DNA from: Rhodospirillaceae bacterium
GTDB lineage: Bacteria > Pseudomonadota > Alphaproteobacteria > Rhodospirillales_A > Casp-alpha2
Reading direction: 5' to 3'
NCBI GenBank assembly: GCA_003488105.1
Contig: DNMS01000251.1
Coordinates: 1-14,814 of the forward strand
DNA length: 14,814 nucleotides
Both the position numbers and the translations under genes were made by a program. Below the pieces are notes generated by a model that was not told where the DNA came from, did no database searches, and worked only from the letters and a program-made list of their open reading frames with translations. Numbering within the stretch: position 1 is the first letter of the stretch; the number at the start of each line of letters is the position of its first letter. Shown in pieces: positions 1 to 14,814 of this stretch.

Positions 1-1246
1 CATCCTCCGTCAACGGGTCGCACAGAACGTGGGTTATGCCGGGCATTTTCAGACCGAAACCCATGCCGAGATAGCCGACTTGAATGACAGAGGGCGCCAA
101 GGCGAATAAACTGATTCTGTTGTTAGGCTCGGGCGCGTTGACGTTCACGAGAACGTCAATTTCATCACCACTGACGATGATCGATGCGATCTCGTCTTCC
201 AGTTCCCACAGACGGCGGTCAAAATCCGCCACATTGTTCAGGTGCTGGATATAGGCGCTACGTCCTTGCGTCTGCTGATACATGAAGACTTCGAAACGGG
301 AGCGGTCGTGTAATTCGAGGATCGGCTCAAGAAGCGCGGCCGCATCCTGGTCCCATAGGCTGTTGCAGACGTATCCCACATGGATACGCTCTTTCCGTTC
401 CCGGCTAGGTACAGCTTCAACGGGGAGGCCGGGCTTATCTTTGAGCGTCCGAGCCAGCGCGTCTTCGATCGGTTGCAACGTGTCGGCGTTTGCGCCGGTC
501 AAATTCCCTGCCAGGGCAAGCGTCGCGGCGACCAATTTAGGTTCGTCCTCAGACAGTTCCGCAACCTTGCCGAAGTGGTATTCGGCGGGTTTTTCGACGC
601 CGATCGCCTGGCTTAAGCGGCCCGCCTGAAAATGGGCATTTTCATCATCCGGCGCCAGTTCCGTCGCCTTTTGAATGGCGCTGATGGCTTTCTCGAACTT
701 CCCAATCTTCTGACATGCCTCGCTGTATGATGTCAGCGCTTGAACGTCGTTAGGCGACAACATGATGTGCCGTTCGAACTCCCGCACGGCAATTTCGTAC
801 TCGTGACGATTCAGGGATACGGTCCCGAAAGCCATGTGCCGGGGGATCGCAGTGTTTTCCAGCGACGTGAAAAAATTGGTGAAATCCGACGGAATGAGAT
901 TGTGGACCTTCGGGTGCGGTTCGAGGGTTGTCGACAGCTTTGCGAAATAGACCCCTTCGTTCAGGTTGCCGACGCGGACATGCAGATTGGCAAGAACTTC
1001 CGCGTACTCGAAGCAATCAGGATCTTGATTGTGGGCTTCTTCGATAAACGAGAGCGCCCGGCCGTATTCTTCCATCGTTACGGCGGCAAGACCCACGAGG
1101 TACAAGAGTTCTGGCGCGTTTGGCCGTTCACGCAACAAGGCATCCAGGTTAGAGAATGCTTGCTCGGTTTTTCTGTTCAAGATCAGCTCGCAGGTGTTGC
1201 TGACCTGTTCGTAAAATGCCGGGGACGCGTCGGTGTTCATCGTCAT
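1..1246 (-). CDS. TPR protein with divergent GT41 (SPINDLY/OGT-like) glycosyltransferase domain, partial
   Basis: No stop codon occurs before the window edge, so only the first 415 residues are seen. Helical TPR-like repeats cover about residues 20-110 and 138-205 (for example 'YGRALSFIEEAHNQDPD' and 'FEKAISAIQKATELAPDDE'). From about residue 287 the sequence follows the start of the O-GlcNAc transferase/SPINDLY catalytic region: 'RIHVGYV' for 'RVGYVSPDF', 'RFEVFMY', 'DVLVNVN' and 'FALAPSVIQVGYLGMGFG' for the family's 'FALRPAPIQ..WLGYPGT'. Several normally invariant positions differ. The family's His after 'SxDFxxH' aligns near Gln299, and WLGYPG is GYLGMG. It lies 128 bases after flaF on the same strand. 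In Caulobacter a TPR-GT41 protein (FlmG) glycosylates flagellin, so a cytoplasmic flagellin-modifying role is inferred here. The start is ATG at 1246; ATG at 1240 is an alternative. Neither has a good ribosome binding site. Confidence 0.8.
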   Translation of the reverse strand, partial: MTMNTDASPAFYEQVSNTCELILNRKTEQAFSNLDALLRERPNAPELLYLVGLAAVTMEEYGRALSFIEEAHNQDPDCFEYAEVLANLHVRVGNLNEGVYFAKLSTTLEPHPKVHNLIPSDFTNFFTSLENTAIPRHMAFGTVSLNRHEYEIAVREFERHIMLSPNDVQALTSYSEACQKIGKFEKAISAIQKATELAPDDENAHFQAGRLSQAIGVEKPAEYHFGKVAELSEDEPKLVAATLALAGNLTGANADTLQPIEDALARTLKDKPGLPVEAVPSRERKERIHVGYVCNSLWDQDAAALLEPILELHDRSRFEVFMYQQTQGRSAYIQHLNNVADFDRRLWELEDEIASIIVSGDEIDVLVNVNAPEPNNRISLFALAPSVIQVGYLGMGFGLKMPGITHVLCDPLTED

Positions 1247-1374: not shown

Positions 1375-1860
1375 TCAGGCTTCCGTGTCCACGTCTAGCC
1401 GGGGCGGCGGTGCGTCTGGGGTCGGCTGTTCCGGATGAGACGTTGCGGCAGGAGCGTCGGGGGCCGCATCGGCACTTTGGGGTATCTGCGCCAAGCCTGC
1501 CGCGATATTCCTGTTGATCTCGATCAACACGGTCATAGATTCCGGCGTTGGATTGACCAAGGCGCCCACCGTGTGTTTGTCGATGAATTTGCAGAGCGTC
1601 AGCATATTGATTCGCAATTCTTCAGGCACATCGGAGCGTTCGGTCGTCAATTCCGCCTGAAAAATCGTCCAAAGCCGCCAATTCAGACGCAGCGCCGCTT
1701 TGCGCGCGTCTTTGGTCGCCTTCGCGTCGCCGGCGTCATAGGTGATCGAAACGGCCATTCGCTTGGCGGCTTCAATCAACGCCCAGGCTTCGCTTTGCGC
1801 CGGATTCCCCCCTTGGGGGCGGCGTTCATATTTTTTAACCTGATTCTCGTATGGAGGCAT
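1375..1860 (-). CDS. flaF: FlaF, flagellar biosynthesis regulator
   Basis: This 161-residue protein fits the FlaF family (PF07309), which in Caulobacter and relatives promotes flagellin synthesis and secretion opposite FlbT. Recognisable parts are the N-terminal 'MPPYENQVKKYERRPQGG', the helix 'AWALIEAAKRM', the family core 'LRLNWRLWTIFQAEL', 'VPEELRINMLTLCKFIDKHT' and the C-terminal 'LIEINRNIAAGLAQIP'. FlaF proteins usually have about 115-130 residues. The excess is a Pro/Ala-rich tail of about 30 residues after the conserved end, probably disordered. I chose ATG at 1860 because FlaF proteins begin right at this Tyr-containing segment. An in-frame GTG at 1896 would add 12 residues, and neither start has a strong ribosome binding site. 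It lies between flgL and the TPR glycosyltransferase. No flagellin or flbT gene is visible in the window. Confidence 0.8.
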   Translation of the reverse strand: MPPYENQVKKYERRPQGGNPAQSEAWALIEAAKRMAVSITYDAGDAKATKDARKAALRLNWRLWTIFQAELTTERSDVPEELRINMLTLCKFIDKHTVGALVNPTPESMTVLIEINRNIAAGLAQIPQSADAAPDAPAATSHPEQPTPDAPPPRLDVDTEA

Positions 1861-1984
1861 CGTGTTATATGCAGTCCCAATTTGACGAATCGACACACAT
1901 TACCATGCGATCTTCTAGAAATTAAGTTGTCATAAAGTTAATGACGCACGCAACTAGCCGGACGGCATATTACCTTAAGCAACA

Positions 1985-2023: not shown

Positions 2024-4441
2024 TTAAAGGAAGTTCGACAGGCTCAGCTGGCGGACTCGGGCGAACGTCTGATAGGACGCCTCCAAGGTGCGCTGGGTAT
2101 CCAGCAAATTGGTGATCGCTTCAAGGGGATCAATGTTTTCGATCGACGCGATGCTGTTGTCGAACGCAGCGATGATCGTTTCGTTCGATTTCTTTATGTC
2201 ATTCAGAAGAACAGACCGATAACCGAGAATGATTTCCATCTCCTCGATGTTGCTGTCCAATTCCCTGCCGAATGGGGGTGGTGTGGTATTTGTCCGGTCC
2301 AGGGCATCGTCCAATAGGTACAGCCCCTCGCTGACTCGGTTCTGATTCCGGTCCAGGCCGCCCTCGGAGCCGGTTTCGCCCTGCAAGACAAGGAACATGC
2401 CGCGGATCGCTTTCTCGAATGCCGGGTCGATGCCTGTGATGTCAAAATTGAATGATTGCGATTCACTGACCCGGTGGATTTGGGTCGAAGTGTCGCCCTT
2501 GTAATAGCTGGTGGCCGAGATGGTGCCGACGGTGCCACCAATGCTGATCGTGCCGGCGGTCTGCGTCGGGGTGGTGTCATCGACCGCATCTGTCGGAATC
2601 AGCGTTGCCGTCAGGCCGTCTGCGGAGACCGAGGCGATCGTGTACGTATTATCGTTCAGGCCGCCGGTGGTGCCGGCGAAGGTGATTCGGGTGCCGGCCG
2701 GCAGGTTGTTGCCGTCGGGGTCACGGAAATAACCGCCGCCCAGGGTGATGCTGTCCGCGGCGGGATCGTTGTCGGTGTAGGTAATGGACCCGGTTCCGGC
2801 CAGAACGGCCGCCGTTTCGGTCGCGGTGCCGCCGGGAAGGTTGTCGGTGGCGACCAGGGTCGCGGTCGTGCCGTCGGTGGAAATGGATTCGATCGTGTAG
2901 GTGCCGTCGTTGCCGGTGCCGCCACTGACGGTGATCCGCGTGCCGGCCGGCAACAGGTTGCCTTTGGCGTCGGTGAAGGTCGCGCCGGTGAGGGCGATCG
3001 TGTCCTGGCCCGCACCGCCATCCGTGAAAACAACCTCGTCGGCGCCGGCGGCGCCCGCGTCGAAGTAGAAGTTCCGTTCCGCCGCGTTGAAGGAGAACGG
3101 CAGGGCATTCAGCGCGACCACACCCGTCGTGACGGTCGGGACTGTGTCATCCAGGCTTTCATCCGATGCCAAGGTGAGCGTCACGTTTGCCCCGTCGTCG
3201 GCAACGCTTTGGACCGTGAATATCTTGCCGTCGTTTTCCGTGTTGGTGTTGTTGATCTTGATGCGTTGGCCCGCTTCCAGGGTCCCGAAAGTGGCTGTGT
3301 TGGTGATGATCTGGTCTTCACCGTTGGGGCCCGTGCCGACGGAGAACGTCAGCGGGTTGGCGCCACCCAAGACTTCGAGCGTGCTGTTGGCGCCGCCGTC
3401 GGAGACGAGGCGCTGGCTTTCGATCACCAGGTCCGTGCCGTCATTGCTGGCGACCGTGAACGACCCGTTGTTGTTGGTCGTGCCGGCAATGGTGATCATC
3501 GATCCTTCGGGGATGGCATCCAGGGCGTCGGTGTTTATGGCCGTGATGGTATTGGTGCGGCGGTCGAAGGTGACGTCGGTGGTGAAGCTTGTCATCACCC
3601 GGAGATCTTCGGGGTCGGGATAGGAGAATTCCGCGAAGATCGGCACGAGGGCGGTGCCTTCGTCCGTCAGTTGTTCCGTGCGCACGTCGATCCACAGCCC
3701 GTTGGGATCGACGCTGTCGACCGTATAGACACCGTCGTTCACGCCGCCAACCGTGCCGGCTATGGTGATCGTCGTGCCGGCGGCGATGTTCTGGAACTGG
3801 CCGCTGGATGCGGTGGTATTGATCCGGCTTTTGCCGGTACCTGCGTCGGTTTGCTCGAATGTCAGATGGGCCGGGTTCAGGTCGACGCTGCTGCGGGAAA
3901 TGGAAAAGCTTTCCAGATGTGCTTCGCGCGTCGTCGGGTAGGTGACGCGCGCACCGTCGTAGATCGATTGGAACGCGGATACCGTGGACAACCCGAAACT
4001 GATCGGTTCCGTGCGGACCGTGCCGCCGCCGAAGATATAGCGGCCGTCTGCCTCGGTATTCAGGTAGTTCTGTATATCCTTTAGTGCGCGAAAGGCATCG
4101 GCCTGGATCTGTTCGATCCGCTCCGGGTCTGTCTGGTCGCCGTTGGAAAAGCCCAGCAGAAGTTCGCGGAAGTCGGAAATTGCACTGCGGATTCCAGTGA
4201 TGGCCGTCGTCTGAATGTCGAGACGAAGCTGGGCTTGGTCGTTGTTTGAATTGAAACGCTCCAGGCTGGCTTTGGCGTTCTCGATGTTAAGCAGACGCTG
4301 GGACGACAGGGCGAGACCGCTGTAGGTCTGAGTTCGCTTCTCTGTCCCGACCTGCGTTTCCAGATCCAGCAACGTTCTCTGCGTTTGCAGGAAACGACTA
4401 ATCAGAATGGTGTTGGAGGCGGAACTGCTGATTCTGGTCAT
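2024..4441 (-). CDS. flgL: FlgL, hook-filament junction protein 2 (HAP3), with large repeat insertion
   Basis: This is an 805-residue flagellin-like junction protein that joins FlgK to the filament. The N-terminal part (about 1-185) is a typical FlgL helical arm: 'RISSSASNTILISRFLQTQRT', 'SGLALSSQRLLNIENAKASL', then 'FRALKDIQNYLNTEADGRYIFGGG', the flagellin-family 'N....GRYLFSG' motif. The C-terminal part (about 655-805) returns to helix and ends 'LDTQRTLEASYQTFARVRQLSLSNFL', a standard FlgL terminus. FlgL normally has about 300-400 residues. The excess is the central region, about 196-632, made of five repeated beta-rich modules. The reading frame is unbroken. The start ATG follows AGGGA by 8 bases, and this ribosome binding site overlaps the flgK stop codon. 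Only 11 bases separate the two genes, so flgK and flgL are surely co-transcribed and probably translationally linked. Confidence 0.93.
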   Translation of the reverse strand: MTRISSSASNTILISRFLQTQRTLLDLETQVGTEKRTQTYSGLALSSQRLLNIENAKASLERFNSNNDQAQLRLDIQTTAITGIRSAISDFRELLLGFSNGDQTDPERIEQIQADAFRALKDIQNYLNTEADGRYIFGGGTVRTEPISFGLSTVSAFQSIYDGARVTYPTTREAHLESFSISRSSVDLNPAHLTFEQTDAGTGKSRINTTASSGQFQNIAAGTTITIAGTVGGVNDGVYTVDSVDPNGLWIDVRTEQLTDEGTALVPIFAEFSYPDPEDLRVMTSFTTDVTFDRRTNTITAINTDALDAIPEGSMITIAGTTNNNGSFTVASNDGTDLVIESQRLVSDGGANSTLEVLGGANPLTFSVGTGPNGEDQIITNTATFGTLEAGQRIKINNTNTENDGKIFTVQSVADDGANVTLTLASDESLDDTVPTVTTGVVALNALPFSFNAAERNFYFDAGAAGADEVVFTDGGAGQDTIALTGATFTDAKGNLLPAGTRITVSGGTGNDGTYTIESISTDGTTATLVATDNLPGGTATETAAVLAGTGSITYTDNDPAADSITLGGGYFRDPDGNNLPAGTRITFAGTTGGLNDNTYTIASVSADGLTATLIPTDAVDDTTPTQTAGTISIGGTVGTISATSYYKGDTSTQIHRVSESQSFNFDITGIDPAFEKAIRGMFLVLQGETGSEGGLDRNQNRVSEGLYLLDDALDRTNTTPPPFGRELDSNIEEMEIILGYRSVLLNDIKKSNETIIAAFDNSIASIENIDPLEAITNLLDTQRTLEASYQTFARVRQLSLSNFL
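2546..3856 (-). repeat. Five tandem modules of about 70-85 codons inside flgL
   Basis: Modules lie at about FlgL residues 196-266, 288-358, 364-444, 468-548 and 552-632. Each has a core such as 'GTTITIAGTVGGVNDGVYTV', 'GSMITIAGTTNNNGSFTV', 'GQRIKINNTNTENDGKIFTV', 'GTRITVSGGTGNDGTYTI' or 'GTRITFAGTTGGLNDNTYTI'. After the core comes a short 'SvsaDGtta.L' strand and an acidic/Thr-rich linker. Copies 4 and 5 are the most alike and share the preceding 'lt...F.D..GN.LPAGTRIT' segment. At DNA level they share the palindrome TGCCGGCCGGCA (2692-2703 and 2941-2952). Copies 1-3 are more diverged. The pattern fits duplication of a small beta domain that would project as a variable surface domain. I do not recognise a named family. 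Confidence 0.85.
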
Positions 4442-4452
4442 CGTCTAATTCC

Positions 4453-6771
4453 CTAGGCCACGGCCTGTTCCAGGCGATCAATCATTTCCTGGATGACGGA
4501 AATGACCCGCGCGGCGGCGGAGAACGCCTGCTCAAACACGATCAGATCCGCCAATTCCTCATCCAGATTGACACCCCGGATGCTGTCGGACTTGAACTGA
4601 AGACTTTCGGTCAAGGTGCGTTGGCTGTCGATTTGCCGGTCGTTGGTGTCGGCAAGCGACGAACTGCGTGCGATCATCGACGATGCGTATTCGGAGAAGC
4701 TGACGTTCAACGACGGCAGGCCACCGGAAACCGCGAATGAGTTGGAATTGGACAGCATTGCGGACAGTTCCTGGGCGACGCCATTGCTGCCGGGTGACGT
4801 CAGGTATTCACCAGCCTGGCCTTTCGATGTGTCGAATTCCAAACGTCCGGACGAAACGAGACTGGGGGCCGCGACAATGTCCGATCGCACGGAAATCGCG
4901 GTCGACGCGCGGACATCGGCTTCCTTCAAGCCCAGTTCGCTCATCAGCGTCGTGCCGGCGGTCGCCGGGGCGGCGCCGGGCGAGGCGGAGTGCGTGACGG
5001 TGAAGGACCGGCCGTCGTCATGGGCAATCCGCAGCCGGAAGCCCGAGCCGTCGGGCACCACGGAGGCGGTAATGTTCTCGACCGGCGAGAAACTGGTCCC
5101 GGCGACGGGGGCGCCGACGGGATAGAACATCCCGGATGTGTCCGTGCCGCCGTTGTTGATCAGATCGGCGATTTGCTGCAGCGTCGCCCCCGCCGGGATG
5201 ACGACATGACCCAGATATTCAGGGCCGGAGCCCGTATCCGGTGTGTTGGCATCGCGGAAGCTGAGTACTGCGGAGGTGCTTACGAAGCTGGAGCTGAGCA
5301 CGTTTGAATCGTAGATGTTTTCCGCGAGGCCATCGACGAACAGGTTGTTCAGGCCGAAGAAACTGGAAAACCCGGATACGGTTTCATCGACGGTTCCGTC
5401 GCCGTCCTTGTCGAACTGGATGGAGGCATCTTCGAAGTCGCTGCCATCCGCCGTGCCGGTTTCGTCACGCAAGCCGAAGCCGAGCTCCGTATTGTTGAGG
5501 TTGATCGACAGTTGATTCTGGTCGTTCAGCGTTACCGATGCCGAGGGGGCGCCGTTCAACTGAAAGAAATCCTCGAGCCGCGCCGCCAGTTCCGTGATGG
5601 TAATCCCGCCGCTGTCGTCGGTACCGTCGCCGAAAGTCTGGCCGTTGCCCGTGCCGCTCAGGATTTCGGACAAACGGACGGAGATCGTCTGGGCGCCGTC
5701 GGCGTCCATCATGACGATGGCGACATCGTCCGTACCGCCGAGTGAAATCGTCTGTTCCTGAGGCAGGGTGAAAATGCGTTGGCCGGTCAGTTCCTGATGA
5801 CCGGGGAATGCGGTGCCGCGGTTGTGGACCAGATTGATTTGGTCGCGCAATTGGGCCGCCAATTCGTCAAGCTGTGCCTGCAGGTTCGGCAGGACATCGT
5901 CGCGCATGTCGATCAGGCCGGCCAGTTGGCCGCCGCGGGCCTGGGTCGTCAGGTCGTTGATGGCAAGCCGCTCGCCCACGTAGATTCCATCGATCTGGCC
6001 GCTGGCGACCGTCGAGGTCGAGCTCATGGCGGCCGCGGACTCGTGGGTGATGGTCGGCGGAATGGTATCGACCAGCGTCAGGCCCGAGGACGTGAACACG
6101 ACGACGTCGCCGTCGTTACGCGAGAAGAAGCGGATATCGACCAATTCGGACAGGCGGTCGATCTTGTTGTCACGCTGATCTTCAAGATCCGTTGTGTCGT
6201 TGCCGGTCGAACCGAAGCGGATAATGTCGTCGTTGAGCTGATCGATGTCGGCCGTTAGTTGATTCATCTCGGAGACGACGGCGGCGATCTGTTGATCGGC
6301 CTGAAGCCGAAGGTCCTGAATCGTACGGCTCATGGCGGCGAATTTTTCGACCGCGGCCTGGGCTTGGCGGACCAGTTCGCTCTGTTCAAGGATACGGTCC
6401 GGCGAAACCGAAAGCAGTTCCGCGGCCTCCTTGAACTCTTCCAGAATATGCGAGATGGAGGTGTTGTCCCCCGGCGTGCCGAACGTTTCCTGCAGGCGCT
6501 GGTAGTAGCTTTCCTTGACCGTTACGTGGTTGAGCTCGCCCAGTTCCGTGCGGATGGTTTTGATCAGGCCGCCATCGACGACACGGCTATAGCTGGCGAT
6601 CGAGACCCCGGCACCCTGGCCGGCCAGCACCACGGATTGCTGTTGGATGATTTTGCGTGAATACCCGGGGGTATTCACGTTGGCGACGTTCTGAGAAACG
6701 ATGTTGAGCGCCGTCTGATTCGCCAGCAGGCCGCTTTGCGCTGATCTCAGTGCTTGTGTGATATCGCCCAT
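4453..6771 (-). CDS. flgK: FlgK, hook-filament junction protein 1 (HAP1)
   Basis: This 772-residue junction protein sits between hook and FlgL. The N-terminus has the axial-protein signature 'LNIVSQNVANVNTPGYSRK' (residues 22-40). The segment up to about 320 is the conserved helical core ('LEEFKEAAELLSVSPD', 'DLEDQRDNKIDRLSELVDI', 'LPNLQAQLDELAAQLRDQIN'). The C-terminus 'GVNLDEELADLIVFEQAF' (733-750) and 'VISVIQEMIDRLEQ' is the standard FlgK end. Enteric FlgK has about 550 residues, and the extra length is in the variable middle (about 330-630). That middle contains a Ca-loop-like 'DKDGDGTVDETV' at 454-465. I see no copy of the module found in FlgL and FlgE. The ATG start has GGGAA about 10 bases upstream. 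The flgN-like gene is 36 bases upstream, and its product is a plausible FlgK/FlgL export chaperone. Confidence 0.95.
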   Translation of the reverse strand: MGDITQALRSAQSGLLANQTALNIVSQNVANVNTPGYSRKIIQQQSVVLAGQGAGVSIASYSRVVDGGLIKTIRTELGELNHVTVKESYYQRLQETFGTPGDNTSISHILEEFKEAAELLSVSPDRILEQSELVRQAQAAVEKFAAMSRTIQDLRLQADQQIAAVVSEMNQLTADIDQLNDDIIRFGSTGNDTTDLEDQRDNKIDRLSELVDIRFFSRNDGDVVVFTSSGLTLVDTIPPTITHESAAAMSSTSTVASGQIDGIYVGERLAINDLTTQARGGQLAGLIDMRDDVLPNLQAQLDELAAQLRDQINLVHNRGTAFPGHQELTGQRIFTLPQEQTISLGGTDDVAIVMMDADGAQTISVRLSEILSGTGNGQTFGDGTDDSGGITITELAARLEDFFQLNGAPSASVTLNDQNQLSINLNNTELGFGLRDETGTADGSDFEDASIQFDKDGDGTVDETVSGFSSFFGLNNLFVDGLAENIYDSNVLSSSFVSTSAVLSFRDANTPDTGSGPEYLGHVVIPAGATLQQIADLINNGGTDTSGMFYPVGAPVAGTSFSPVENITASVVPDGSGFRLRIAHDDGRSFTVTHSASPGAAPATAGTTLMSELGLKEADVRASTAISVRSDIVAAPSLVSSGRLEFDTSKGQAGEYLTSPGSNGVAQELSAMLSNSNSFAVSGGLPSLNVSFSEYASSMIARSSSLADTNDRQIDSQRTLTESLQFKSDSIRGVNLDEELADLIVFEQAFSAAARVISVIQEMIDRLEQAVA

Positions 6772-6807: not shown

Positions 6808-7251
6808 TTAAAGGTTTTGGTCAAGAGAGACGGCGACGGAATTGGCCGCCGCGCGGGTGCCTTCCTTGCCGGTGCGGCCGTTTTTCGAATAGGTGCCGGA
6901 ATGAGGAACGGCCTGCTGCACGGCTTCGGCGAACAGATCAATCACCTGCTTGTTGGCGGTCATGCCGACCTCGAGGCGCATGGCGTTCTCGCCGACGGCG
7001 TTGGCCAGGCGGGTGCCCGAGACGGTCAGGTTTTCGTGCAGGTCGGGTGGAATTGCCTTCCAATCCAGGTTGGCTTCGTCCAGGTCCTTCATGCTGTTTT
7101 CGTACAGGCGCGCGAGCGTCGCCTTGTCTTCCAGCATGGCTTCCACGTCGAGGAACCGGCGTTCGATGAGCGCCAGATTCTCCGCTTCGATCAGGTCGCT
7201 CATCTGGTCGGTCAGTTCGACCATTCTTTCAAGGCGTTCCATCGATTCCAT
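6808..7251 (-). CDS. flgN: FlgN-like flagellar export chaperone
   Basis: This is a 147-residue, almost wholly helical acidic protein. Residues 1-60 ('MERLERMVELTDQMSDLIEA', 'LIERRFLDVEAMLEDKATL') match the pattern of the FlgN family (PF05130): 'L...L..E...L...d......l..K..L'. FlgN is a cytoplasmic chaperone that holds unassembled FlgK and FlgL for type III export, and its place directly before flgK and flgL supports this. After about residue 115 a low-complexity stretch ('HSGTYSKNGRTGKEGTR') leads to a short end, 'VSLDQNL'. The ATG at 7251 is preceded by a strong AGGAGG at 10 bases, which decides this start over a longer open frame reaching 7416 through flgJ. Sequence identity to enteric FlgN looks low, so the name leans on position as well as helix pattern. 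Confidence 0.7.
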   Translation of the reverse strand: MESMERLERMVELTDQMSDLIEAENLALIERRFLDVEAMLEDKATLARLYENSMKDLDEANLDWKAIPPDLHENLTVSGTRLANAVGENAMRLEVGMTANKQVIDLFAEAVQQAVPHSGTYSKNGRTGKEGTRAAANSVAVSLDQNL

Positions 7252-7279
7252 GAGTGTAGGTCCTCCTGTCGGGCGCTTG

Positions 7280-9062: not shown

Positions 9063-10685
9063 CTAGCGTTTGAGGTTGGCTGCTTCCTGCAGCATTTCAT
9101 CGGCGGTCTTGAAACTGGTCGCGGCGACGTTATAGGCGGCCTGGGCAGCGATCAGGCGGCTCATTTCCGTGCCGAGATCCACGTTGGATCCTTCCAGTGC
9201 GTTGCCGAGAATGGTCGCGAAGCCGGACTCGTCGGCGAAAACCTGGTTCGGCTCGCCGGAGGCTTCCGTTTCCTGGAAATTTTGGCCGGTGGAGATTTCC
9301 AGACCGTTCGGGTTGGGGAAGATCGCCAACGGAACCTTGTAGAGAACGCGGCGCGTATTGTCCGTGAACTCGCCATAGATCTCGCCGCCGGGCCCGAAGC
9401 TCAGGCTCGAGACGGCCGCGGACTCGGCGCCGTTGTGTTCGTAGTTGGCGAAGGAAAAGTCGCCGGCAAATTGGGTGAAGGTGCTGGCATCAAACGTGAA
9501 AGTTGCGGTTTCGCCATCATCGAAGGTGACGTCGAAAGTATACTCGGAATCCGATGTCAACGCGCCGGTGTTGCCGAATTCAAGGCGCTGCGGGATCGAT
9601 GCCGTCGAGGAGAACGTGATGGCGTTCGTCGTCACTTCATCGGCGTTGAGAGGCACGGCCCCATCCAGGGTGATCTCCGCCTGATTTTCCGAAATGCTGG
9701 CGATCGTATAGGTCTGGTCGTTGCCGCCGCTTCCCGCCACGGTGATCGTGTCACCCGGCTTCAATCCGGCGAACGTGCCGGCCAGCTGGCTGCCCAGTTG
9801 CGCACCCCCGCCCGGATTGTTGTTGGTGAATGCCGTAATGACGCCACCGCCGCCGACGACGGTCGAGAACCGCACGGCATGGTCGTCCAGCGTGGTCGAG
9901 ACCGGCGTGTGAACGCCGCCGGGTGATGCGGTCACGCTGGCGATATTGTCGCCGATCAGGCGGAAATCCCACAAGTTCGTAGCGTCGAAAGCCTTGGTGA
10001 AATCGACGCGGATGCTTTGGGCGTCAAAGCTCGAGTCAACAACCTTGATGCTGCCGTTGAACGTCGTGCCCGAGGCGGCGTCGGCCGGTAGGTTGACGTC
10101 AACGGACGCGGCCGTTGTCAGTTCCCCGGTATCTTCAAAGGCGAACTGGTCGACGCGCATGGGTGCCGGCGTGCCCAGGCTGAAACTGCCGTCCGGATTG
10201 ACGGAATAGCCCAACAGGAAGTTTCCGAACTGGTCCGCGAGATAGCCCTGGTTCACGGTCGCCGCCGTTCCGTCGGAAAGCGTTACGGAATCCGTCAGGT
10301 CGGTGACGTTGATATCGAAGGCGCCGCGCCGCGTGTACTGGATGTTGCCGTTCACATTGATGTCGGGCGAGACCATGAAAAAGCCGCTACCGATGATCGC
10401 CACGTCCAGGTTGCGGTCGGTGGTGCGGACTTGGCCCTGATTCGAGATGCGTTGGAAATCAACGGGCGCGGTCCCGCCGAGGTCGGAATGGGTGGTCCCG
10501 GAGGCACCTTCCGCCGTGGTCGCGCCGATCGATGTGAACCCTTTGTTCATCAGCGTCCGGAATTCAGTATCCGTGCGCTTGTAACCGTCGGTGTTCAGGT
10601 TGGCGACGTTTTGCGAAATGGTGTTCAGCTTGTGGGACTGACCCATCATGGCCGAGGTCGCTTGCTGAAAAATGCCCAAACTCAT
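9063..10685 (-). CDS. flgE: FlgE, flagellar hook protein
   Basis: This 540-residue axial protein begins with the rod/hook signature 'LNTISQNVANLNTDGYKRTD' (20-39). The conserved hook domain follows ('ISNQGQVRTTDRNLDVAIIG', 'GFFMV', 'YTRRGAFDIN', 'GYLADQFGNFLLGY'). It ends with the family C-terminus 'GSNVDLGTEMSRLIAAQAAY' ... 'FKTADEMLQEAANLKR'. It forms the extracellular universal joint of the flagellum. Its length is more typical of alphaproteobacterial hooks than of the 400-residue enteric FlgE. The start 'MSLGIFQQATSAMMGQSHKL' is less canonical than usual FlgE, so a paralogous hook-like protein cannot be excluded. Residues of about 277-358 contain one copy of the beta module repeated in FlgL. 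The gene is a stand-alone unit, with a sigma-54 promoter upstream and hairpins downstream. GGGGA lies 10 bases before the ATG. Confidence 0.88.
   Translation of the reverse strand: MSLGIFQQATSAMMGQSHKLNTISQNVANLNTDGYKRTDTEFRTLMNKGFTSIGATTAEGASGTTHSDLGGTAPVDFQRISNQGQVRTTDRNLDVAIIGSGFFMVSPDINVNGNIQYTRRGAFDINVTDLTDSVTLSDGTAATVNQGYLADQFGNFLLGYSVNPDGSFSLGTPAPMRVDQFAFEDTGELTTAASVDVNLPADAASGTTFNGSIKVVDSSFDAQSIRVDFTKAFDATNLWDFRLIGDNIASVTASPGGVHTPVSTTLDDHAVRFSTVVGGGGVITAFTNNNPGGGAQLGSQLAGTFAGLKPGDTITVAGSGGNDQTYTIASISENQAEITLDGAVPLNADEVTTNAITFSSTASIPQRLEFGNTGALTSDSEYTFDVTFDDGETATFTFDASTFTQFAGDFSFANYEHNGAESAAVSSLSFGPGGEIYGEFTDNTRRVLYKVPLAIFPNPNGLEISTGQNFQETEASGEPNQVFADESGFATILGNALEGSNVDLGTEMSRLIAAQAAYNVAATSFKTADEMLQEAANLKR
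9612..9857 (-). repeat. Single copy of the FlgL-type beta module inside flgE
   Basis: FlgE residues of about 277-358 contain 'LKPGDTITVAGSGGNDQTYT' followed by 'IASISENQAEITLDGAVPL'. This parallels FlgL copy 4, 'LPAGTRITVSGGTGNDGTYT' followed by 'IESISTDGTTATLVATDNL'. The order of elements is the same: a preceding 'F' strand, 'l.pG..ITvaG', the 'GND.TYTI.SIS' turn and a 'tL' strand. The similarity is at protein level. Confidence 0.75.
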
Positions 10686-10909: not shown

Positions 10910-12022
10910 TCAGGGGGCCGGTTTGGGGAAAATCAGAAGATGTTCCGGTGCCACCCGGGCGCTGACGCGCGATCCGATTTCCGGCAGAAACACCCCGGGC
11001 ATCCGGGCGTTGAAAAGGGCTCCGTCGCCGCCGTCCTCCAAGGACAGAGTCAGATGGCTGGAACGCCCGAGCGAGCGCGCTGAGACGACAGTCAGTAGGG
11101 TGCCGGCGTCTGTTGCGCCCGGTTGGGACAGGTTCAGGGCTTCGGGGCGGACCAGCACCTGGGCTTCGGCGCCTTCGACAAGGCCGTTCGCGGGAAACGG
11201 CCCCAGGACGGAGACCAGGGCGCCGTTCTCCACCCGGCAGTCGAGGCGGTTGACGGGGCCGAACAATTCGGCGACGAACACTGTCTTCGGGTGGAAATAG
11301 ATCTCGACCGGCGTGCCGGACTGGACGATGCGTCCGTCCTGCATGACCATGATGCGGTCGGCCATGAACATGGCTTCTTCCGGATCGTGGGTAACCATCA
11401 GGGTGGCGATGCCCGATCGCGACAGGATTTGGAACGTATCCTGGCGGATCTGGGCACGGCGGTTGACGTCGAGGCCGGAAAACGGTTCGTCCAGCAACAG
11501 CACCCGGGGGGCCGGGGCCAAGGCGCGCAGCAGGGCGACGCGCTGCTGCTGGCCGCCGGACAGGGTATGGGGAAAGGCGTCGGCATAATCGCCGAGGCCC
11601 ATGGTTGCGAGGGTATCGCGGGCCCATTGCCGGCGAGGCCGGTCCTTTTCCGCCAGGCCGAACACGATGTTTTCGTACACGGTCAGATGGGGGAACAGGG
11701 CAAAGTCCTGAAACATCAGGCCGACATTGCGTTTTTCCGGCGGCATTTGGGGGCCGCCGTGGCCATCGGCGACCGTATCCTCGCCAATGGTGATGCGCCC
11801 GACCTGTAGGTCCTCAAGCCCCGCTGCAAGGCGCAGCAGGGTCGTCTTGCCGCATCCCGAAGGTCCCAGCAGGCAGACCAATTCGCCCGGATTGACGAAG
11901 ACGGAGACCCCCGACACCACGGTGTGATCGCCGAATGCATGCGAGACGTTCAGCATGTGCAGGCCATCGGCCTTGGACATGGTCGTCGGCGCGGCGGCGG
12001 GCGGAGCCATGGGGGAGGTCAT
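10910..12022 (-). CDS. fbpC: Fe(III) ABC transporter ATP-binding protein, FbpC type
   Basis: This 370-residue ATPase powers the FbpB permease at the inner face of the cytoplasmic membrane. Its motifs are complete: Walker A 'GPSGCGKTT' (53-61), Q-loop 'FQDFALFPHLTVYENI' (104-119, the Fbp/Pot-type form), signature 'LSGGQQQR' (154-161), Walker B 'VLLLDEPFSGLD' (174-185) and switch histidine in 'MVTHDPEEAM' (209-218). A C-terminal TOBE-like regulatory region (about 265-370, with 'VLVRPEALNL') follows. Among importers of this group, the length and the neighbouring Fe(III)-type binding protein favour iron over polyamines or sulfate. The ATG overlaps the fbpB stop by 4 bases (ATGA), with GGAGG 5-6 bases upstream, so the two are translationally coupled. 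The first 20 residues are a low-complexity Pro/Ala stretch, and Met15 or Met23 could also serve as starts. Confidence 0.93.
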   Translation of the reverse strand: MTSPMAPPAAAPTTMSKADGLHMLNVSHAFGDHTVVSGVSVFVNPGELVCLLGPSGCGKTTLLRLAAGLEDLQVGRITIGEDTVADGHGGPQMPPEKRNVGLMFQDFALFPHLTVYENIVFGLAEKDRPRRQWARDTLATMGLGDYADAFPHTLSGGQQQRVALLRALAPAPRVLLLDEPFSGLDVNRRAQIRQDTFQILSRSGIATLMVTHDPEEAMFMADRIMVMQDGRIVQSGTPVEIYFHPKTVFVAELFGPVNRLDCRVENGALVSVLGPFPANGLVEGAEAQVLVRPEALNLSQPGATDAGTLLTVVSARSLGRSSHLTLSLEDGGDGALFNARMPGVFLPEIGSRVSARVAPEHLLIFPKPAP

Positions 12023-13725
12023 GGATGGCCTCCGCCGGCGTGACCGGGGCGGCTGCGCAAGGTCGTCAGGGCGAGGATGATCACGGGAATCAGGCCGGCG
12101 GCGACGATGGTCAGCGCACCCAGGGCCGATTCCTCGAACAATTCGTCCGAAGCGTACTGGAACACGAAGGTCGCGAGCGTGTCATAGCCGAAGGGGCGCA
12201 GGATGATGGTAATGGGAAGCTCCTTCATGCAATCGACGAAAACCAGCAGGCCCGCCGTCAACAGGCTGGTGCGGAGCAGCGGGAAATGGACGCGGGACAT
12301 GGTCTGGAACGGGCTTGCCCCAAGCGTCCGCGCGGCACCGTCCATGTTACGCGAAACCTTGCCCAGGCCGGCCTCGACCGTGCCGAAGGACAGCGCCAGA
12401 AACCGCGCCAGATAGCCATAGAGGATGGCGATCACGGTGCCGCTGAACAGCAGTCCCGTGGATACACCGAATACCCGTTCCGAGAAAGCGTCGATCGCAT
12501 TGTCCAGGCCCGCCATGGGCACGATCACGCCGATCGCCAGCACCGCACCCGGCACGGCGTATCCGATCGACGCGAAGCGCACGGCGGCGCGGGGCAGGGG
12601 GCCCGAGCCCATACGCAGCCCGTAGGCGAGAATAAGGCCGATGGCGACGGCGATGACGGCCGCCCCCAGGGACAGCGAAATGCTGTTCAGGGTAATGGTC
12701 AGGTAATTGGCCTTCAGCGTGACGTCAAAGAACACCACGGCGTAGGACAGCAGGACCGAGGCCGGCAGAACGAAGCCGAGCAGGATTGGAAAGGCACAGA
12801 AAACGGCGGCCAGGGCGGCCTTGACGCCGCTCAGGCGGTAGCTGGGCAAAGCCTGAATCTTGCTTGATGTATGATGGTAGCGTTGCCCCCGCCGGGCCAT
12901 CCGCTCCATCACGACCAGGACGACGACGAAGATCATCAGAACCGACGCCAATTGCGCCGCGCCCGAGATGTTGTCCATGTTCAGCCAGACGTCGTAGATG
13001 CCCGCCGTGAAGGTCTTGACGCCAAAGAAATCGACGGTCCCGAAGTCGTTCAAGGCCTCCATCATGGCCAGGGTCATGCCGACCACGATGGCCGGGCGGG
13101 CCAACGGCAGGGCGACGTTCCAGAAGCTCTGCCAGGCGGTCTTGCCGAGCGTGCGGCTGACTTCGAGCACGCAGACCGACTGTTCCAGGAAGGCCGCGCG
13201 GGCCAGCAGATAGACATAGGGATAGAGCACCAGGGTCATGACGGTGATGGCGCCGCCCATGGAGCGGATTTCCGGAAACCAGTAATCCTGCCGGTCGCGC
13301 CAACCGAAGATCTCGCGCAGCGTGCCTTGCACCGCGCCGGCGTACTCCAACTGGTCCGTGAACACGAAGGCCAGGATATAGGTCGGCACCGCCAGCGGCA
13401 GGACCAAGGCCCAATTGAACAGGCCGCGTCCGGGAAACCGGCACATGGTTACCAGCCAGGCCGTGCCCGTGCCGATGACGAAGGTGCCCAGGCCGATCCC
13501 GCCAATCAGCGTCACCGTGCGTTCGATATAGCCGAACAGTACCGTGTTGTAGAGATGACGCCAGATATCCGGCGCCGGGGTCAGGGCGATGGTCGCGACG
13601 GCGATCAAGGGGGTGGCCACGAACAGGGCGACGGCCAGGGTCAGCACACCCCATCGGTCGGGAATCAGGCGGGCAGGCAGATATCGGGCGGCTGGCCGGT
13701 CAGCGACGGCGGCAGGGTGCGGCAA
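12019..13725 (-). CDS. fbpB: Fe(III) ABC transporter permease, FbpB type (two fused permease domains)
   Basis: This is a polytopic inner-membrane permease of about 568 residues with roughly a dozen hydrophobic segments in two homologous halves. Each half has a cytoplasmic EAA loop that docks on FbpC: 'EVSRTLGKTAWQSFWNVALP' in the first half (about residues 188-207) and 'GAARTLGASPFQTMSRVHFP' in the second (about 464-483). Both halves also carry the conserved region after the loop ('ALNDFGTVDFFGV' and 'CMKELPITIILRPFGYDTLA'). 'MKELP.T..LRPFG.dTLA' is typical of Fe(III)/thiamine-type permeases. No ATG suits the start. I chose TTG at 13725, with GGGAG about 10 bases upstream. The open frame extends to 13803 but then runs through the terminator after fbpA. 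A GTG ('VLTLAV') further in lacks a ribosome binding site. Confidence 0.92.
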   Translation of the reverse strand: MPHPAAVADRPAARYLPARLIPDRWGVLTLAVALFVATPLIAVATIALTPAPDIWRHLYNTVLFGYIERTVTLIGGIGLGTFVIGTGTAWLVTMCRFPGRGLFNWALVLPLAVPTYILAFVFTDQLEYAGAVQGTLREIFGWRDRQDYWFPEIRSMGGAITVMTLVLYPYVYLLARAAFLEQSVCVLEVSRTLGKTAWQSFWNVALPLARPAIVVGMTLAMMEALNDFGTVDFFGVKTFTAGIYDVWLNMDNISGAAQLASVLMIFVVVLVVMERMARRGQRYHHTSSKIQALPSYRLSGVKAALAAVFCAFPILLGFVLPASVLLSYAVVFFDVTLKANYLTITLNSISLSLGAAVIAVAIGLILAYGLRMGSGPLPRAAVRFASIGYAVPGAVLAIGVIVPMAGLDNAIDAFSERVFGVSTGLLFSGTVIAILYGYLARFLALSFGTVEAGLGKVSRNMDGAARTLGASPFQTMSRVHFPLLRTSLLTAGLLVFVDCMKELPITIILRPFGYDTLATFVFQYASDELFEESALGALTIVAAGLIPVIILALTTLRSRPGHAGGGHP

Positions 13726-13754
13726 GGTGCGTGGACTCCCAGGTTGCGGAGGGC

Positions 13755-13793
13755 ACAAAAGCAGAAAACGCCGCGGGGGGAAACCCCGCAGCG
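13755..13793 (-). terminator. Intrinsic terminator between fbpA and fbpB
   Basis: A 10-bp GC-rich stem (13784-13793 with 13769-13778, one G-U pair, 5-base loop) is followed on the minus strand by TTTTCTGCTTTTGT. Flanking GCAGAA and TTCTGC (13761-13766 and 13795-13800) can extend the stem. It lies 30 bases after the fbpA stop. This is a strong terminator by eye. Partial read-through would let the binding protein be made in excess of the permease and ATPase. Confidence 0.85.
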
Positions 13794-13823
13794 CTTCTGC
13801 CAACTGGTTCGTTCAGGAACGAA

Positions 13824-14814
13824 TCAGCTGCCGGGTCCGTCGTCGAATCCAACCTTGTCCACCAGTCGGGAGGCGGCGGGCCGCAGCTTGGCGATTTTCT
13901 CGAGCGAGAGCGTATCGCCCTTGAACTCGCCCCAGGACTGGACGAGCTTCGAATAGGGAACGCCGGGTTTCACCGGATATTCCTGATTATCTTCGGCGTA
14001 GATCTTCTGCGCTGCGTCGCCGGACAGGAACTCGATCAACTTGACCGCCGCGTCCTTGTGCTTGGCGCTTTTGGTTACGGCGGCGCCCGAAACGTTCATG
14101 TGGTTGCCGCGGTCACCCTGGTTCAGATAGGTCAGACGAACGGCGGCGGCCCACTTCTTCTGCTCGGGCTTCTCGTCGTTGGTCATCATCTTGCCCATGT
14201 AATAGTTATTCGTGATGGCGATGTCGCACACGCCTTCGTACACGGCCTTGGCCTGGGCGCGGTCATTACCCTGGGGTTTGCGGGCCAGATTGGCCTTCAC
14301 GCCCTGAAGCCACTTTTCGGCACCTTCTTCACCATGATGGGCGATCATCGAGGCGATCAGCGCCACGTTGTAGGCGTTCTTGCCGGAGCGCACGCAGATG
14401 CGGCCCTTGAATTTGGGATCGACCAGATCCTCATAGGACGTCAGTTCGCCCGGTTTGACCCGTTCCTTGGACACCAGCGCCACGCGGGCACGGGACGTCA
14501 GGCCGAACCACATGCCTTCCGGGTCGCGGAAGTGGGCGGGGATGTTCTTTTCAAGGGTATCCGACTTCACGGCCTGCAGCACGCCGCCTTCCTTCAGGGC
14601 GTACAGGCGGCCGATGTCGACGGTCAGCACCGCGTCGGCGGGGCTATTGTCGCCGGCGGCCTTGATCTTTTCCAGCATGCCTTTCTTGGCGAACACGACG
14701 TTCACCTTGATCCCCGTTTCCTTGGTAAAGGCATCGAGGAGCGGTTTGATCAGGAACGGTTGGCGATAGGAATAGAGGTTCACTTCCTGGTCGGCGGCCT
14801 GGGCCCAGGCCGCC
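13824..14814 (-). CDS. fbpA: Fe(III)-binding periplasmic protein, FbpA/FutA type, partial at its N-terminus
   Basis: The first base of the gene lies outside the window. The visible part starts in the tail of a signal peptide ('AAWAQA|ADQEV'), and about 325 mature residues follow. The fold signature matches iron-binding proteins: 'VNLYSYRQPFLIKPLLDAFT', 'TGIKVNVVF', 'NSPADAVLTVDIGRLY', 'WFGLTSRARVALVSKERV', 'LTSYEDLVDPKFKGRICVRS'. Likely metal ligands are Tyr in 'LYSYRQ', Tyr in 'GKNAYNVALI' and the Tyr pair in 'ITNNYYMGKM', equivalent to the Tyr ligands of FbpA and FutA. The FutA His in 'SSRHY' is Gln here. In-frame GTG codon 14783-14781 encodes the Val of 'EVNLYS' and is not a start, because the frame continues upstream into the signal peptide. 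The protein captures Fe(III) in the periplasm for FbpB and FbpC. Confidence 0.93.
   Translation of the reverse strand, partial: AAWAQAADQEVNLYSYRQPFLIKPLLDAFTKETGIKVNVVFAKKGMLEKIKAAGDNSPADAVLTVDIGRLYALKEGGVLQAVKSDTLEKNIPAHFRDPEGMWFGLTSRARVALVSKERVKPGELTSYEDLVDPKFKGRICVRSGKNAYNVALIASMIAHHGEEGAEKWLQGVKANLARKPQGNDRAQAKAVYEGVCDIAITNNYYMGKMMTNDEKPEQKKWAAAVRLTYLNQGDRGNHMNVSGAAVTKSAKHKDAAVKLIEFLSGDAAQKIYAEDNQEYPVKPGVPYSKLVQSWGEFKGDTLSLEKIAKLRPAASRLVDKVGFDDGPGS

Follow-up and report, generated by a model that had tools for sequence, protein, structure and literature searches.

Five tandem beta modules in the hook-filament junction protein FlgL of a Rhodospirillaceae bacterium, and their variation in number across its relatives

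The stretch of DNA analysed here, 14,814 nucleotides of contig DNMS01000251.1 from a marine Rhodospirillaceae bacterium (assembly GCA_003488105.1; hereafter the window), encodes a hook-filament junction protein, FlgL, whose middle is an array of repeated modules. The gene flgL (2024..4441, minus strand; 805 residues) lies among hook genes, directly downstream of flgK, in the order flgK (4453-6771(-)), flgL, flaF (1375-1896(-)). An earlier note, made from the sequence alone, had proposed that intact FlgL ends flank a large insert, and both helical ends do match TIGR02550 in order: the whole protein gives two stretches (E 4e-25, 88.9 bits), and the ends alone give 93.9 bits in a single stretch that spans the full profile (positions 1-387 of 387). 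The N-terminal D0/D1 end (residues 1-189; 3875..4441(-)) has its best TIGR02550 stretch at residues 3-148 and predicted helices at 2-33, 45-99 and 106-127. The C-terminal D1/D0 end (residues 646-805; 2027..2506(-)) has predicted helices at 673-804, is conserved in 23 homologs, and in a Pfam scan matches Flagellin_C weakly, under the cut-off. By fold comparison the core resembles solved FlgL, with residues 1-41 and 773-805 mostly below 50 in the predicted local distance difference test (pLDDT). The 88.9 bits fall below the TIGR02550 cut-off of 127.2 bits, which is a threshold for automatic naming at NCBI and not a biological feature. Because three FlgLs of the same order with 0, 0 and 1 module also miss it (65.4, 99.2 and 55.6 bits), this cut-off is unfit for the order. 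At 805 residues, and being FlgL and not flagellin, the protein lies outside the giant flagellins, which are filament proteins of more than 1000 residues.

Between these ends, residues 191-640 hold five copies of one module of about 85 residues: M1 (residues 191-275; 3617..3871(-)), M2 (284-361; 3359..3592(-)), M3 (362-450; 3092..3358(-)), M4 (468-551; 2789..3040(-)) and M5 (551-640; 2522..2791(-)). A profile of the five segments matches the protein at residues 193-275, 284-361, 364-450, 469-551 and 552-639. The proposal of five diverged tandem copies of one beta module, originally placed at 2546-3856 (residues ~196-632), is upheld in a leave-one-out comparison, in which each copy, scored with the profile of the other four, stood above all 1000 of its own shuffles (real 21.6-60.6 bits, best shuffle 7.9-15.3), the segment borders having been set by eye and the alignment made with all five copies present. 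The segments therefore belong to one family rather than to unrelated ones, and M4 and M5 are indeed the closest pair, with a BLOSUM score of 195 vs 49-104 for the remaining nine. Origin by duplication is likewise supported. The DNA of M4 and M5 is just 65% alike over 189 bases, so the duplication that made them is not recent, and a recent duplication in the window was rejected on this ground; the highest DNA value of any module pair, 71%, extends over 31 bases only. Structure prediction, which the earlier note had named as a check, displays a repeated beta fold in FlgL, and M4 folded alone has seven predicted strands (pLDDT 87.9). The nearest solved folds of a single module are small barrels with middling scores, and the models suggest that the modules are small all-beta domains, probably barrels. 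The module anatomy of this FlgL is well supported; the function of the modules we infer.

The relationship of the module to known families was sought at several levels. Pfam, NCBIfam and PHROGs gave no family above its cut-off for the module on the window protein; the nearest Pfam-A family in the module region was Phage_attach (23.3 vs a cut-off of 26). With 59 single modules, the best Pfam E value was 0.0013 among the 25 of 67 families listed, with cut-offs given for one member only. A search of PDB sequences with module profiles returned nothing under E 0.04. The barrels resembled in fold, namely the E1 FCCH domain, the riboflavin synthase N-domain and a phage endosialidase barrel, share 12-19% identity with the module at those middling scores, and common descent is a candidate only. 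FlgL D2 structures were absent among the matches listed for the single-module fold search, an absence that excludes nothing. The PHROG 1236 profile (phage 'head protein') matched the window FlgL (P0001) at E 4e-12 and 40 of the 59 single modules at E <=0.01; the likeness is partial, taking in only profile positions 51-113 of 177 in P0001 and likewise only part of the profile in relatives. No significant match came from tblastn of M4-M5, of M1 or of P0035 against 50,697 phage records, and among 11 loci found in viral contigs with a back-translated pattern, three contain nothing beyond weak module-like stretches (best 11-16 bits). With a PHROG 1236 match that recurs steadily over part of the profile and no significant tblastn match to phages, a phage origin of the module is a candidate only.

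Five modules were found in all eight genomes of the window's genus and in all 23 proteins, counting that of the window, with 55% identity or more across the full query, on which basis an artefact or assembly error was rejected; P0031, a 449-residue fragment 63% identical over 59%, has three. Of 248 genomes of the order, 179 had a recognisable FlgL, and 60 of these FlgLs were fetched, hand-picked from among the matches listed to spread over genera. At E <0.01, the threshold for all module counts, 56 of the 60 carry at least one module and the range is 0-8, four of the 60 being cut by contig ends. In family f22 several modules score just 10-35 bits, and the scores of some rows are flattered because profile A3 contains a module from an FlgE-like protein of the window (described below) and A4 contains modules of L001-L045. 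Protein length rises with module number, with medians of 440, 508, 609, 720 and 797 residues for one to five modules (58 rows; the FlgL of G130 has 508), and database FlgLs among the best 120 of 301 matches give 515 residues with two modules, ~608 with three, ~708 with four, ~800 with five, 861 with six, 986 with seven and 1074 with eight. Some FlgLs grow in another way: L101, L102 and L136 encode proteins of 1017-1279 residues with just 3-4 recognised modules and several hundred residues of other inserted sequence. Of 192 genomes sampled from the class, 6 had a match at E <=1e-8, one being G001; the other five matches are again FlgL by the N-end profile, with one to seven modules. The FlgL of G009 (L029:2490-5609(+)) has apparently lost its frame near the C end, where its last residues are unlike those of other FlgLs. 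Comparison of copy number in related FlgLs, another check named at the outset, thus supports variation between genera and families, whereas the variation between strains suggested in the earlier note was not seen among close relatives, nor in the eight genomes of the genus.

A tree of 83 FlgLs, built from the end regions alone, calls for 36 or more changes in module number, some of these changes being perhaps missed or split matches given the weak scores in f22. The tree was made by a quick method, with no bootstrap and with 27 of 80 inner branches drawn open; the open-ended FlgLs L090, L096, L131 and L140 were left out of it and of the length contrasts below, as were L029 (broken frame) and P0031 (fragment). 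P0030 and P0123 are 90% identical and one whole module apart. M1 and M2 of the window best match positions 1 and 2 in 10 of the 13 FlgLs compared, the exceptions being P0035, which has three M4/M5-like modules in front, L041 and the one-module L044. In other FlgLs, M3-M5 have their matches at differing positions. The ends of P0012 group with P0004 and P0006 and its M3-M5 with P0015 (approximately unbiased (AU) test, p 4e-41; reverse test, 5e-8), p values that are somewhat optimistic as the clades were named after identities were known. P0122 has ends 83-84% like those of P0035, and M1-M2 81-87% like those of P0030 vs 42-46% to P0035. These comparisons indicate that modules have been exchanged between lineages as whole cassettes, and that the first two modules mostly hold their place across genera while the rest are gained, lost and exchanged. 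Within the 23-sequence five-module clade, mean identity is 78% for M1, 65% for M2 and 72-73% for M3-M5, with 76% for the N-end and 73% for the C-end.

The module is also found outside FlgL, by profile searches, which had been proposed earlier as a check and which placed the window FlgL in no Pfam family above its cut-off. The window encodes an FlgE-like protein of the hook/rod family (9063..10685(-); 540 residues; TIGR03506 above cut-off) with one copy at residues 284-359 (9609..9836(-)), which the earlier note had overlooked. This copy scores 26.3 bits against a profile made solely from the five FlgL copies, 46.0 once that profile is iterated with the FlgE-like protein left out, and 65 with A3, which itself contains it. 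The window FlgK (4453..6771(-); 772 residues; FlgK_D1 E 6e-43) had no accepted match in the module profile searches. Among relatives, canonical FlgE holds one copy in L027, L028, L032 and L034, two in L031 and three in the incomplete L030; the site of the L027/L028 copy is empty in L032, whose copy sits elsewhere. One FlgK of 821 residues has a single module (L033:4807-7272(+); 28 bits). One or two copies lie in giant open frames of thousands of residues (L036:3-18001(+), L037:1-11186(+), L038:1-16001(+)), in surroundings that we take to be RTX- and LamG-like. The 13 flagellins read at 12 loci, including three longer than 1000 residues, were all without the module. Because copies occur in FlgE, FlgE-like proteins, one FlgK and the giant frames as well as in FlgL, the module is a portable part of exposed axial proteins.

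Other genes of the window deserve brief mention. Beside flaF and flgL, and cut by the window edge, lies a tetratricopeptide repeat (TPR) protein with a family-41 (O-GlcNAc-transferase-like) glycosyltransferase domain (2-1246(-)), which may glycosylate flagellar proteins, perhaps at the Thr/Ser-rich modules. Between the gene for the rod-binding protein and flgK is a frame without a Pfam family at E 0.001 (6808-7272(-)), by position perhaps an FlgN-like export chaperone. Adjoining the flagellar genes are those of an ATP-binding cassette (ABC) transporter (10910-14813(-); a solute-binding protein cut by the window edge, a permease and an ATPase), which we take by likeness to be an iron importer.

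In our sample of the order, FlgL length follows the lengths of flagellin and FlgE, and not that of FlgK. We compared open-frame lengths of FlgL, FlgE, FlgK and the best-scoring main flagellin by kinship-corrected contrasts on the FlgL-ends tree, testing six length pairs on 58, 54 and 58 rows. FlgL and flagellin gave r 0.69 (P 7e-9; 53 contrasts, 37 of the same sign), FlgL and FlgE r 0.60 (P 7e-7; 57 contrasts, 38 of the same sign), and FlgE and flagellin r 0.53 (P 4e-5). In the same contrasts FlgK length covaried with none of the others (r -0.09 with FlgL, 0.10 with FlgE, -0.01 with flagellin). The genomes of the three longest complete FlgLs among the 60 (1279, 1075 and 1017 residues) have flagellins of 1152, 1115 and 1062 residues (L148, L149, L150), which hold no module. 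Dropped for FlgE were G041, G247, G046 and G131 (none listed) and G067 and G108 (cut), and for flagellin G112 and G229 (none) and G081 and G091 (cut); the flagellin of G001 was entered as 459 residues, its best-scoring match having 423. In some genomes the best-scoring flagellin or FlgE may come from a second flagellar system.

The earlier note held that FlgL normally has 300-400 residues and that a large exposed domain there is unexpected. The size range does not always apply, as NCBIfam models of FlgL/HAP3 have 524, 749 and 827 positions, so that large FlgLs exist elsewhere; chains of 744 and 750 residues from the C. jejuni junction-cap complex were among the top Foldseek matches listed, where it is not stated which one is FlgL. 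Nor is the surprise fully supported: two papers describe an exposed beta-sandwich D2 in FlgL of Xanthomonas campestris (PMC6155364) and a 'bulky D2 domain' in that of Campylobacter jejuni, together with a solved Salmonella junction model of 11 FlgK and 11 FlgL with FlgL D2 exposed (PMC12221982). The window FlgL shares with all three the helical D0/D1 ends and a beta outer domain inserted in D1. It differs in that the outer domain here is an array of 0-8 homologous modules, varying in number and exchanged. There is also a likeness to giant flagellins, in which, according to Thomson et al. (2018; PMC6248924), an axial protein of marine bacteria is enlarged in its exposed region by internal domain duplication; in our case the enlarged protein is the junction protein, and the module is absent from the 13 flagellins. 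A literature search by title and abstract opening, covering few subscription papers, found no paper on a modular or variable-copy FlgL. To our knowledge, studies of variable flagellar surface domains centre on flagellin.

Our tentative preference, which we put at a little short of an even balance, is for a reading in which FlgL of this order can enlarge its outer (D2) domain by stacking modules, so that the junction stays proportionate to hook and filament. If the part inserted in D1 faces outward, as it does in solved junctions, then an FlgL ring, which in Salmonella has 11 subunits, would surround the hook-filament junction with a collar of about 55 modules. Small, acidic, cysteine-free modules would be well suited to being exported unfolded and to refolding once at the tip. 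The collar would be mainly geometric and mechanical, its outer layer proportioned to the surface layers of hook and filament, such that thick or heavily decorated flagella would have no weak, thin step at the joint. The co-scaling of FlgL with flagellin and hook favours such a role. Several points weigh on the other side. The co-scaling is correlational, drawn from open-frame lengths and corrected on the FlgL-ends tree rather than a genome tree. Without the three giant-flagellin (>1000 residues) genomes, r falls to 0.61 for FlgL and flagellin, 0.50 for FlgL and FlgE and 0.34 for FlgE and flagellin, and the sign test for FlgL and FlgE gives 32 of 54 (P 0.22). Module number alone follows FlgE length weakly (r 0.28, P 0.03), because some FlgLs lengthen by other sequence (1279 residues with three modules), and in G033 and G072 an FlgL of 986 residues occurs alongside a flagellin of about 490. 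FlgK adjoins FlgL in the junction but does not scale. Exchange of modules between lineages points to selection for diversity, something that size matching would not require. Finally, D0 is poorly predicted, and barrel closure and outward arrangement come from prediction and analogy, not from coordinates.

The insert had originally been suggested to be an adhesive, phage-facing or stiffening collar, and none of these roles is shown by the present results. That the modules bind glycans or surfaces, with the junction acting as a holdfast or sensor patch near the cell, we consider unlikely; the module swaps and the copies in giant open frames keep this and the phage-facing reading open. Distinctly improbable, in our estimate, is a diversifying surface, on which phages that attach to the flagellum, or grazers, would drive the variation and swapping of modules: repeated gain and loss and the cassette exchanges in P0012 and P0122 speak for it, but the modules of the 23-sequence clade are overall no more variable than the ends, and the genus has five copies throughout. 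A neutral origin, in which any foldable domain is tolerated in an exposed loop and module number, set by tandem duplication and recombination, is under no selection, would account for the frequency of change in module number, for the differing insertion sites in hook proteins and for FlgLs enlarged by non-module sequence. It sits poorly with first modules that hold both position and likeness in most FlgLs compared, with a number fixed across a whole genus, and with a length that covaries with two other axial proteins and not with FlgK, and we regard it as improbable. Adhesion, diversification and neutral growth may also combine.

These results describe a junction protein that often changes size and consists of exchangeable modules that hook proteins use as well, and this build may explain why several of these proteins are named 'hypothetical'. 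Covariation of FlgL with flagellin and hook protein, and not with FlgK, yields a rule, open to testing, for the way in which the extracellular part of the flagellum varies in thickness. It also bears on whether other components are correspondingly large, a question raised in the paper on giant flagellins (PMC6248924). A more far-reaching proposition, which for now we hold to be doubtful, is that module number in FlgL is an evolutionary size dial, whereby hook protein, junction protein and flagellin stay matched in their outer layers, on the part of FlgL by gain, loss or borrowing of whole cassettes, while FlgK stays constant. If true, this would be a general rule for building thick flagella and would answer whether other components grow along with giant flagellins.
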